Below are positions 4,364 to 7,770 of a stretch of 11,070 bases of DNA, piece by piece. The stretch is from Chitinophagales bacterium. Its GTDB lineage: Bacteria; Bacteroidota; Bacteroidia; Chitinophagales; UBA10324. Every line of letters starts with the position of its first letter. The stretch's first letter is position 1. A model generated the notes under the pieces. The model had not been told where the DNA came from. It did not search any database and saw only the letters and a program-made list of their open reading frames with translations. The stretch covers positions 1 to 11,070 of the forward strand of contig JAJAYG010000213.1 in assembly GCA_026786335.1 (NCBI GenBank), in the 5' to 3' direction. A program made the position numbers and the translations under genes.

Positions 4364-5057
4364 ATGAAAACCTCTCTCTCTCTCTCTCACTCTCTGCTTG
4401 TTGGCAATGAAAACTTACGCCCAATGTGATTGCCCTACATCCCCAACTAATATAAGTATTGTAGCAGGGTATCCGGTGAACATTAATAAGAATGAAAATG
4501 ATGTCGCATGGAATGCTGCTGCGGTAGATGAAGATAACAGTGGTAGCACAGATTGGTATGTAGTGGTTGGCTCAACTGTTCCAAATACTACAAACGGAAA
4601 AGATGCTTTTGCAATGCGCGTTAACCTTGACGGAAGCACCATTGGAACATGGTACTATACTCGCAACTTTCAGAATAGGGATGAAGAAATAATGTCTGTC
4701 TTTATCACAAGTGATAATAAAATCCTTTTGTGTGGTAAAGCACGAACTAATTACCTTGATCCGTGCAGGTATGGTGTTTTAAGTACTGATAGCAGCAGCA
4801 ACTCACTTGCTGTTTTCCCAAACCCTTCTACCGGCGATTTCAACATTAGTTTGAAGTTGGATGAAGTAGTATCAGGTTCTGTAAAATTAGAAGTACTCGA
4901 TCAGGCAAGCAGAGTATGCTTATCGGAATACAGACAGATTGAGAATGGAAGCATGCTCAATTTTAATTCAATGGAATTACCTACGGGTATGTATTTCATA
5001 AGAGCTTCCATTGCTGAGTCAACCTATCTGGCAAAACTTCTTATCCAAAAAAACTAA
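4364..5057 (+). CDS. Secreted T9SS type A sorting-domain protein, signal peptide out of frame across a CT repeat
   Basis: The ATG at 4364 opens a signal-peptide-like reading (MKTSLSLSHSLL) that leaves the correct frame within the (CT)8 tract and stops at TGA 4427-4429. The rest lies in another frame, open from TTG 4398 to TAA 5057. Adding one CT unit (or removing two) fuses them into a 231- (or 229-) residue protein starting MKTSLSLSLTLCLLAMKTYA, with a signal-peptidase site before QCDC. The mature part has one propeller-like blade (DAFAMRVNLDG, then DNKILLCGKA, similar to delta-60/SBBP repeats). It ends in a T9SS type A sorting domain of about 80 residues (LAVFPNPSTGDF ... LPTGMYFIRA ... LAKLLIQKN), which would send it through the outer membrane. 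As sequenced, only a signal-less form from TTG 4398 or ATG 4407 can be made. One blade is far fewer than a propeller needs, so an internal deletion is possible. It may be phase-variable, a decaying gene, or a sequencing artefact. Confidence 0.7.
4372..4388 (+). repeat. (CT)8 microsatellite in a signal-peptide coding region
   Basis: Eight CT units plus one C form an uninterrupted 17-base tract starting 8 bases after the first base of the ATG at 4364. After one AC interruption, TCTCT follows. A dinucleotide tract inside an ORF changes the frame with each unit gained or lost. Here 6, 9 or 12 units would be in frame and the 8 present are out of frame. The in-frame reading gives alternating Ser-Leu residues that form a good hydrophobic signal-peptide core. 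Confidence 0.85.
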
Positions 5058-5091: not shown

Positions 5092-6786
5092 ATGAGAGCA
5101 TCTAATATTTTCATTTTAATAATTGCGTTCAGCAATACCATCTTGGCGCAAGGAACATGGATTCAGAAAGCTGATGTTGGGGGAAATGGGCGATTTGGGG
5201 GTATTGGTTTCAGCGTGGGTAACTTTGGTTATATTGGTACTGGTAGTGGAGGCTAAAAAGATTTTTGGCAATATGATCCTGCTTCAGAAGTATGGACACA
5301 AAAAGCCGACTTTGGTGGTGGCGATCGAGTAAATGCTGTTAGCTTTTCAATCGGCAACAAAGGTTACGTTGGAACTGGACAGTGGAATCAACTTTTTAAG
5401 AAGGATTTTTGGGAGTATGATGCTTCAGCAAATATTTGGACTAAGAAAGCAAACTTTGGTGGGCATTCACGTGAGTCTGCCATCGGCTTGAGTATCGAAG
5501 GCAAGGGTTACATTGGATTGGGCCATTATACTAATGAACAGACTCAAGACAACATTGATTATATGGATCTTTGGGAATACGATACCGTCAATGACACTTG
5601 GACAAAGAAAGCAAACTTTGTAAATAGCAGAAAGTTAGCGGTCGCTTTTTCAATTGGTCATAAAGGCTATGTTGGAGCTGGTTACTCCATTGGCGCACCC
5701 AACTTAAACAATGACTTTTGGCAATATGACCCCTCTTCTAATTTTTGGACCCAAAAAGCAGATATACCAGATTCACCGAGAATGGAAGCAGTTGGTTTTT
5801 CTATTGCAGGCAAAGGTTATGTTGGGACGTGAAGCAATGGCTTAGACTATAAAAAAGATTTTTGGGCCTATGATACTTTAACCAACACATGGACTCAGCA
5901 AGCAGATTTTGGTGGTAGTGCTCGTGCATGGGCTGTCGGGTTTTCGATTGGCGGTAAAGGATACATTGGTACAGGCGTAAATCCAGGTTCATTAAAGGAC
6001 TTTTGGGAATTCTCTCCTCAGTGCGATAGCTTGATTGTTTTTGCTGATGCAGATGGCGATGGCTACGGAAATGCAAGCAATGATACCCTGCTCTGCGATT
6101 CCATTTTACCCATGGGATATGTCTATGACAACACCGATTGCAACGATGCAGATGCAACTGTTAACCCAAACGCAAATGAGATTTGCAGCAATGGAATAGA
6201 TGATAACTGCAACGGTCAGGTAGATGAAAACTGCTGCGCTGCACCTGCCGGGCTTGCCACCACTAACATTACAAATTCGAGTGCGCAACTGAACTGGAAT
6301 ACAGTTGCCTCTGCTACAAAATACAAGGTTCAGTGGAAGCGTGATTCCTCCGGTGTAGCATGGAATACCATAACTGTTACTGCGCCGAATACTACAACGA
6401 CTATAACAGGACACTTACCAAATAGCAAGTATAAATGGAAAGTGCGAAGCATCTGCGGCAGTATGAAATCAGATTTTTCTGCCATAGTAAAGTTCACTAC
6501 ACTTTTGAGAATGGGGAATGAAGTGATGAAAGACAACAGTGTATCCGTTTATCCTAATCCATTCGATCAATCTGCAACCATTTCATTTATGCTTGATAAA
6601 ACCTCAACCGTTGAAATTGATTTGTTCGATTTATCAGGAAGAAAGTTTACATCAATCGTAAGTGAGACACTCGAACAGGGCGAGCATCAAATTCCATTTA
6701 ATAGCAAGGATCTGGAATCAGGCATCTACCCTTTGCAGTTGAAACTTGCAGATGAAATCAGGATAATAAAAATAGTTGTTCAATAA
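5092..6786 (+). pseudogene. Six-blade kelch propeller / MopE-motif / FnIII / T9SS protein with two in-frame stops
   Basis: One frame runs from ATG 5092 to TAA 6786 (564 sense positions), interrupted only by TAA at 5254-5256 (codon 55) and TGA at 5830-5832 (codon 247). Order: signal peptide (ILIIAFSNTILA, cut before Q); six kelch-like blades whose DFW/DLW-x-Y/F motifs begin at 5260, 5404, 5566, 5713, 5857 and 5998 (47-54 residues apart); a MopE-type putative metal-binding motif at about residues 315-382 (DADGDGYG, DCNDADATVNPNANEIC, DDNCNGQVDENC); an FnIII domain at about 384-470; and a T9SS type A sorting domain from about 482 (VSVYPNPF). No frameshift is present. Both stops fall in the same kind of loop, between GYxGTG and DFW, and each is one base from a sense codon (TGA where the repeat pattern suggests Gly GGA). 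As sequenced, export and secretion signals are on different fragments, so the protein should be inactive unless the stops are read through or are errors. It starts 34 bases after the previous gene. Confidence 0.8.
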
Positions 6787-6810: not shown

Positions 6811-7770
6811 ATGAAAAATCTTCTCAGTACTATACTCCTTGGTTTATCTGTAACCATCACGAGTGCCCAAATTGAATTTGTAGTGATCAACACACCCACA
6901 GAAAATAATTTCATTGCTTCTTCCTTTATCAATGATGATGAAGGATGGATTGCGGATAACCAATCTGTGCTATGGCATACCAATAACGGAATGGCAACAT
7001 TTGATACCATGTTTATTGGAAAGCAATTCGTTAAGATTGACTTTATTGATGCAAGCAATGGATTTGCTATCGGCAATGACATTGCCTACAAAACCAGTTA
7101 CGGCGGAGCAACCTGGCAGTCGTTATCTCTTGAGCATATTACTTCAGCACTTCTCTTAATTGATAAGAATACCGGTTTCATAAGTGGTGTTGATTCCATT
7201 TACAAAACAAATGACAATGGTATTAGCTGGTCAACAATTCCCATTGAGCAAAGAACCTTCGTTGATTATTACTTCACTGATGAATCAACAGGTATTGCTG
7301 CAGCAGAGAATTTTACCGATAACAAGCCCCTTTGGAGAACTACAGATGGCGGGCAGACATGGAAAAATGTTTTTGACGACTACCATTATCACATGAACTC
7401 CGTTTTTTTTCTAAACAAAGACACAGGTTGGGCAGCAGGGTATTTTGAAACAGGTGGCTCAACTCATGAACCGTCAATCTTAAAATCTACCGATGGGGGT
7501 AGTTCGTGGACAATGCTTTATCAAAATAATGAAGTAATGGGTCTTGGTGAATCATTTATAGATATCCGTTTCAAAAGTTCTCTCAATGGTTTTGCTATCT
7601 CAAATATGTTCGTGAATGTGATTACCACAGATGGTGGCAAAACATGGACTCGTGCCGATGAAACCAATTTCGTTAACTTCCCTGAACACAATGGCTATTA
7701 CAAAACGATTGAAGGTTCAAACAAGCTATACCTGATAGGCACAGGGGGCTATATAGCGAAATGGAAGTAA
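6811..7770 (+). CDS. Exported Asp-box (BNR/YCF48-like) beta-propeller protein
   Basis: A 319-residue protein with a clear signal peptide (MKNLLSTILLGLSVTITSA, cleaved before Q20). It has a series of Asp-box repeats: a degenerate HTNNGMATF near residue 56, SYGGATW near 96, TNDNGISW near 133, TTDGGQTW near 177, STDGGSSW near 226 and TTDGGKTW near 272. Between them lie strands of the YCF48/BNR type such as DSNGFAIGN-like and DTGWAAGYF motifs. This pattern indicates a sialidase-like or YCF48-like propeller; no sialidase catalytic residues can be claimed. Unlike the two genes before it, it ends right after the last blade (GTGGYIAKWK) and has no T9SS sorting domain, so it is likely periplasmic or otherwise exported. 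It follows the kelch gene by 24 bases and is probably co-transcribed. The reading frame is intact. A T8 run at 7403-7410 lies within it. Function unknown. Confidence 0.8.
   Translation: MKNLLSTILLGLSVTITSAQIEFVVINTPTENNFIASSFINDDEGWIADNQSVLWHTNNGMATFDTMFIGKQFVKIDFIDASNGFAIGNDIAYKTSYGGATWQSLSLEHITSALLLIDKNTGFISGVDSIYKTNDNGISWSTIPIEQRTFVDYYFTDESTGIAAAENFTDNKPLWRTTDGGQTWKNVFDDYHYHMNSVFFLNKDTGWAAGYFETGGSTHEPSILKSTDGGSSWTMLYQNNEVMGLGESFIDIRFKSSLNGFAISNMFVNVITTDGGKTWTRADETNFVNFPEHNGYYKTIEGSNKLYLIGTGGYIAKWK

Follow-up and report, generated by a model that had tools for sequence, protein, structure and literature searches.

A CT repeat in the signal peptide of a T9SS cargo gene as a candidate slippage switch in a Chitinophagales bacterium

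Reading frames at the locus

The window, by which we mean the whole stretch of 11,070 nt that was analysed (contig C213 of a Chitinophagales MAG), contains a cassette of three genes on the forward strand, the first of which has a CT repeat in its signal-peptide region (Table 1). The ATG of this gene was read in the window sequence at positions 4364-4366. As the original prediction had it, this ATG and the frame of the T9SS protein are out of register, the break lies at an unbroken (CT)8 tract, and translation ends at a TGA in the frame of the ATG after 21 residues; the sequence bears out all three points. Directly 3′ of the tract follow CA and three further CT, and the 222 codons beyond the tract are uninterrupted up to a stop ending at 5057. 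Arithmetic on the coordinates also agrees with the earlier statement that 6, 9 or 12 CT units would join both frames. A long perfect repeat that lies within the gene start and determines the frame by its number of units is the arrangement of an SSR contingency locus, and not one of 200 shuffles of the window sequence contained a (CT)8.

Table 1 Features of the CT-tract gene and its cassette in the window.
Feature	Position (nt)	Strand	Remarks
ORF in the present OFF state, 21 codons	4364..4429	+	ATG, CT tract, TGA at 4427-4429
(CT)8 tract, proposed slippage site	4372..4387	+	unbroken; predicted to code for the Ser-Leu stretch in the signal peptide
Downstream frame of the secreted protein	4389..5057	+	signal peptide remainder (..MKTYAQC), N-terminal propeller-like part, T9SS tail
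T9SS type A sorting domain, PF18962 / TIGR04183	4812..5045	+	residues 139-216 of the ORF starting at 4398
Second cassette gene, kelch + MopE + fn3 + T9SS tail	5092..6786	+	in-frame TAA 5254-5256 and TGA 5830-5832
Third cassette gene, Ycf48-like/BNR repeat protein	6811..7770	+	open throughout

In the databases, the protein of the window gene is represented by a copy of 216 amino acids (P0001) whose start is placed 3′ of the tract. The fused protein of 231 residues, proposed earlier as a search target, did not emerge, as the protein search returned the window's own copy only, and a scan of genome contigs with the window protein found no copy of the locus from a second strain.

The sorting domain of the window gene scores above the cut-off in both Pfam and NCBIfam (PF18962: E-value 6.6e-9, 36.4 bits at a cut-off of 27). 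Apart from this tail, Pfam gave a weak DUF5122 propeller signal for the window-type gene and no match to the Hop family; the gene is therefore not a member of the Helicobacter pylori Hop switches. With the sorting domain and a signal peptide that is complete only in frame, the protein has the features of T9SS cargo, the signal peptide being judged by eye here as everywhere in this analysis. The host MAG encodes the T9SS translocon (SprA_N with 527 bits, in an SprA frame of 1622) as well as an intact MutS of 884 amino acids.

CT tracts across the source genome

The source MAG comprises 2.90 Mb in 564 contigs and is 72.85% complete. Stretches of 2,181-3,017 bp in three other genomes of its order match named Saprospiraceae MAGs without a difference, which places the source organism in the order of the Saprospiraceae but not in that family. 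A full listing of CT repeats of at least five units yielded seven loci, five of which have six units or more: C42 (11 units), C213 (8, the tract in the window), C228 (11), C401 (6) and C554 (12). By eye, a signal-peptide-like N-terminus surrounds the tract at all five of these, and neither of the two five-unit loci (C108 and C138) lies at a signal peptide. A dinucleotide model with parameters from 113,162 bases sampled in the MAG predicts only ~0.05 windows of (CT)6 and ~0.0001 of (CT)8 for 2.9 Mb. The repeats hence cluster at genes for surface or secreted proteins more than chance would allow (5/5 loci), the pattern sought in SSR contingency loci. No AC or AT repeat of at least six units was found in the whole MAG, in a search that covered the units CT, AC and AT.

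Of the five tracts, only that of the window copy is out of frame (OFF), the other four being in frame. The encoded proteins start with MKTKIISRTVV-LSLSLSLL-..TAQC (C228), MKSNLLSRIAV-LSLSFSL-..EAQC (C401) and MKNFNSTMLAKAF-SLSLSLS-..NAQP (C42, with just 91 codons after the tract before the contig ends). In C554, the repeat is GA on the coding strand and is read as ERERERER directly ahead of the hydrophobic core, with an ORF of 198 codons past the tract. Since four of these five genes are probably related to each other, they do not count as five independent origins.

A multi-copy cassette with broken copies

The three-gene arrangement of the window, or part of it, is also present in C228, C401, C220, C274, C280 and C525. 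The intact first genes in the ON state have 668 (C228) and 713 codons (C401). With 231 codons, the window gene is 437-482 codons shorter than these full-length paralogues; it aligns to their start and tail, and most of the propeller is missing. The kelch genes of C228 and C401 are without interruption. In other copies, the kelch gene has two TGA in frame (C280) or a TAA with loss of the frame further on (C57), the Ycf48-like gene has a TAG in frame (C220), and the first genes break off (C525, C274). Overall, several cassettes have a kelch or Ycf48-like gene with in-frame nonsense codons (window 5092-6786, L045, L038, L034). Recoding of stop codons in the kelch genes was considered and rejected, as the TAA and TGA sites match different residues in the other repeats.

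From these alignments, the window copy seems to have lost an internal part, and its cassette to be partly in decay. The original prediction had named an indel error in the assembly as the main alternative to a switch. Our main rival is instead decay of the window copy as a duplicate. Phase variation would then be a present or former property of the family, and in this internally deleted, no longer functional cassette the tract would be a relic fixed OFF. The missing propeller, the TAA and TGA in the adjoining kelch gene and the other broken cassettes speak for it, as opposed to the open stretch of 222 codons past the tract, which ends in a scoring T9SS domain, and to the open third cassette gene. 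Weighing both, we consider decay of the window copy unlikely.

Regarding the age of the tract, the first-gene paralogues in C525 and C274 lack it and have ordinary signal peptides. The same is true of the signal peptide of P0003, the nearest database homologue of the C228 protein (39% identity). For G007, a genome from the same family, 23 ORFs out of six stretches were compared, and no CT/GA run in their first 130 nt is longer than 6 nt. Judging from these relatives, the tract is of recent origin within the gene family.

Similar tracts in named genomes

We scanned the contigs of named genomes for ATGAA, a gap, (CT)8, another gap and Ala-Gln codons in any frame, so that the motif itself was blind to the frame. 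Ala-Gln is consistent with the Q-rule described for Bacteroidetes in the part of the source consulted (PMC5837995). Of 54 matches, 28 were Bacteroidota-named by our own reading of titles. For the ON/OFF count, 24 of the 54 were excluded because there was no ORF of at least 150 codons or no open ATG. The remaining 30 loci comprised 6 ON and 24 OFF, with 4 ON and 13 OFF in the Bacteroidota subset; the long ORF carries the Ala-Gln in its own frame at 25 of the 30. The 6/30 in frame are compatible with the one third expected for random phase (p 0.17), the 30 loci being partly non-independent: L154 and L159 are 97.5% identical over 1575 bp, and L156/L168 and L139/L163 are homologues. Switching predicts a pattern of this kind, with intact long ORFs behind out-of-frame starts in random phase.

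These counts also bear on an assembly or sequencing error, in which the real tract of the window would be in frame and the consensus would have gained or lost a unit. Dinucleotide tracts are prone to error, the MAG is fragmented (564 contigs, 72.85% complete), and there are several stops in the neighbouring kelch copies. However, rare errors would leave most loci in frame, and 24/30 OFF in the scan is far above such a level; the other four tracts of the source genome are in frame, and large genes are open, among them a TonB-type receptor of 997 amino acids and ABC genes in the window, MutS (884) and SprA (1622). Nor would errors account for why the tracts sit in signal peptides. We regard this explanation as very unlikely.

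Domains were sought in 20 of the proteins behind such tracts. A T9SS tail matched with an E-value of at most 0.01 in eight and above the curated cut-off in four, several of the 20 being incomplete at the end of the sequence examined. M12B reprolysin-like proteases (four), M10-like (two), S41 (one) and S8 (one) were found, besides one SBBP propeller, two proteins with PKD domains and three without a match. Four Saprospiraceae M12B-like proteases (L142, L153, L161, L169) are 23-26% identical, carry 10, 13, 9 and 9 CT units in the signal peptide and are all OFF.

Several further loci of the scan may be recorded here. A single Tannerella sp. MAG carries seven loci that resemble each other (L124, L125, L140, L141, L150, L158, L165), in which a short start with an ATG is followed by 8-19 CT units and then by short ORFs only. 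In Prevotella sp. 10(H), the related tracts L162 and L166 (22 and 29 CT units) lie on a single contig, ahead of a very short ORF. L131 and L132 are homologous genes in Kiritimatiellae and Verrucomicrobia MAGs, with 18 and 14 CT units at the gene start, both OFF. L148 has a pilin-like look and no in-frame Ala-Gln.

CT, GA and AC tracts within the order

In a sample of 396 genomes of the order, we searched for at least eight CT units followed by a base other than C, a pattern that skips tracts followed by C, among them the window's own. This search gave 25 places in 16 genomes, or 26 with the window tract added. The script put 14 of the 26 at the 5′ ends of ORFs with 120 codons or more and classed three as interior and nine as "other". 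Three of the 14 tracts at the 5′ end are ON and 11 are OFF. By our own reading and with duplicates merged, signal-peptide-like starts were found at 15 of 23 separate loci, weaker members including L108, L111 and L116. For this count, three tracts of G390 were merged into one, as were two contig ends of G002; G307 was left out as eukaryote-like by eye despite a script call at the 5′ end, and two tracts called "other" by the script were added (C42, where the contig ends after 91 codons, and C95 of G002, where no ATG was found). Also noted was L117 (in C58 of G201), where (GA)18 lies at the 5′ end of an ORF of 208 codons that is methyltransferase-like by eye; no signal peptide and no upstream ATG were found there.

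AC repeats of at least eight units, intended as a control, occurred at 25 places in 20 genomes of the order. At least seven of these 25 (L184, L185, L187, L188, L191, L197, L200), with 8-21 units, precede signal-peptide-like cores. AC tracts were hence rejected as a clean negative control, and the effect is therefore not specific to CT but part of a wider habit.

The AC and GA tracts are also informative on whether the repeat could be a neutral by-product of signal peptides rich in Leu and Ser, without a role in switching. TCT encodes Ser and CTC Leu, both suited to a hydrophobic core, and a high density of STRs in coding sequences of Bacteroidota is described in the part of a report that we consulted (PMC12699852). 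GA and AC tracts ahead of the core, however, encode Glu-Arg or Thr-His, which composition would not promote there, and selection preserving the frame would lead us to expect mostly ON loci, as against the 6/30 seen. In addition, the excerpt available of another study describes strong avoidance in Bacteroidetes of dinucleotide repeats with at least five units (PMC4060949). A mere by-product is thus most improbable.

Differences in tract length

In G002, which belongs to the same family, the ends of two contigs overlap over 128 columns without a mismatch and with a single 6-nt gap, (GA)20 versus (GA)23. Among homologues from the scan, L156 and L168 (proteins 55% identical) have CT13 and CT19, and L139 and L163 (49% identical) have 9 and 12 units. 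The differences between the G002 ends and between L156 and L168 are frame-neutral and are therefore evidence of length change, not of switching. L134 and L175, considered as two alleles of one locus, were rejected as such at 88.7% identity and are homologues.

Discussion

The best reading of these data, and in our view the probable one, is that a family of genes carries slippage switches in its signal peptides. Gains and losses of CT units in replication would make the frame of the ATG match, or fail to match, that of the remaining signal peptide. When both frames match, the tract would supply the hydrophobic core with Ser-Leu repeats, and the cell would make and export the protein. Out of frame, as in the window copy, translation would be over after 21 residues. 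The window gene would be one of at least five such tract genes in the genome, four in frame and the window copy out. This model implies that tract lengths change within a population, that export would be lost in the OFF state and that the shortened window copy would still give a useful protein when ON. The last point is open to doubt because most of the propeller is absent (231 versus 668 and 713 codons). The phase-variable layout proposed originally thus stands as a recurrent arrangement, given the five of five loci in the genome and the random phase before intact ORFs elsewhere, with the reservation that the window copy itself is perhaps a dead duplicate.

The closest parallels are in H. pylori. 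In the parts of the sources consulted, CT repeats in the signal-peptide part of oipA (hopH) set the ON/OFF state, with 5-11 units (PMC10564699), and hopZ, sabA and babA are switched ON and OFF by slipped-strand events at 5′ CT repeats (PMC3960876). As in these genes, the CT tract here lies in the signal-peptide coding region of genes for surface proteins, and several tract genes occur per genome, with ON and OFF copies and similar numbers of units. In contrast to H. pylori, the phylum is another one, the cargo is T9SS-exported rather than an outer-membrane porin-like Hop protein, GA and AC tracts precede the core in related genomes, and the switch is a putative one. MutS is intact here, and slippage is therefore expected to be slower than in H. 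pylori. The original prediction had described slippage switching as well known in Proteobacteria; this view needs widening, the nearest known case being in Helicobacter.

The opa genes of Neisseria carry repeats of the pentamer CTCTT in the leader peptide, as stated in the portion of the source seen (PMC3960869). They share with the present genes a coding repeat in the leader peptide, a multi-copy family and frame-based switching, and differ in the pentamer unit and in encoding adhesins of another phylum. Switching rates have been measured for opa; in the present genes, switching is predicted.

Surface variation in Bacteroidota is mostly attributed to DNA inversion. Invertons make the surface proteins within a population of this phylum heterogeneous, as the loci described here would, but they invert promoters or segments and involve no slippage, unlike the switch proposed for the window gene. 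Variation of this kind by invertible DNA is described for Bacteroidota in the section of a paper available to us (PMC11892184). Among the titles and abstract beginnings of the matches listed, mostly from outside subscription journals, we found none on slippage or repeat phase variation specific to Bacteroidota.

A wider reading can be offered tentatively. The Bacteroidota of this order, together with scattered members of other phyla, may have independently built switches of exported proteins with CT in the core or with GA or AC before it. In the source genome, such a switch would ride on a multi-copy three-gene cassette, the broken copies of which may be a sequence reserve. As part of this joint reading, the switched cargo might comprise T9SS propeller proteins, M12B- and M10-like proteases, PKD proteins and lipoproteins.

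Should T9SS cargo also be switched by repeat slippage within signal peptides, many genes would be switchable that are at present annotated as broken or are given a start too far 3′, so that the signal peptide is missing. The effect, if true, would be readable from existing metagenome reads, and Bacteroidota, Helicobacter and Neisseria would present a testable case of convergence.
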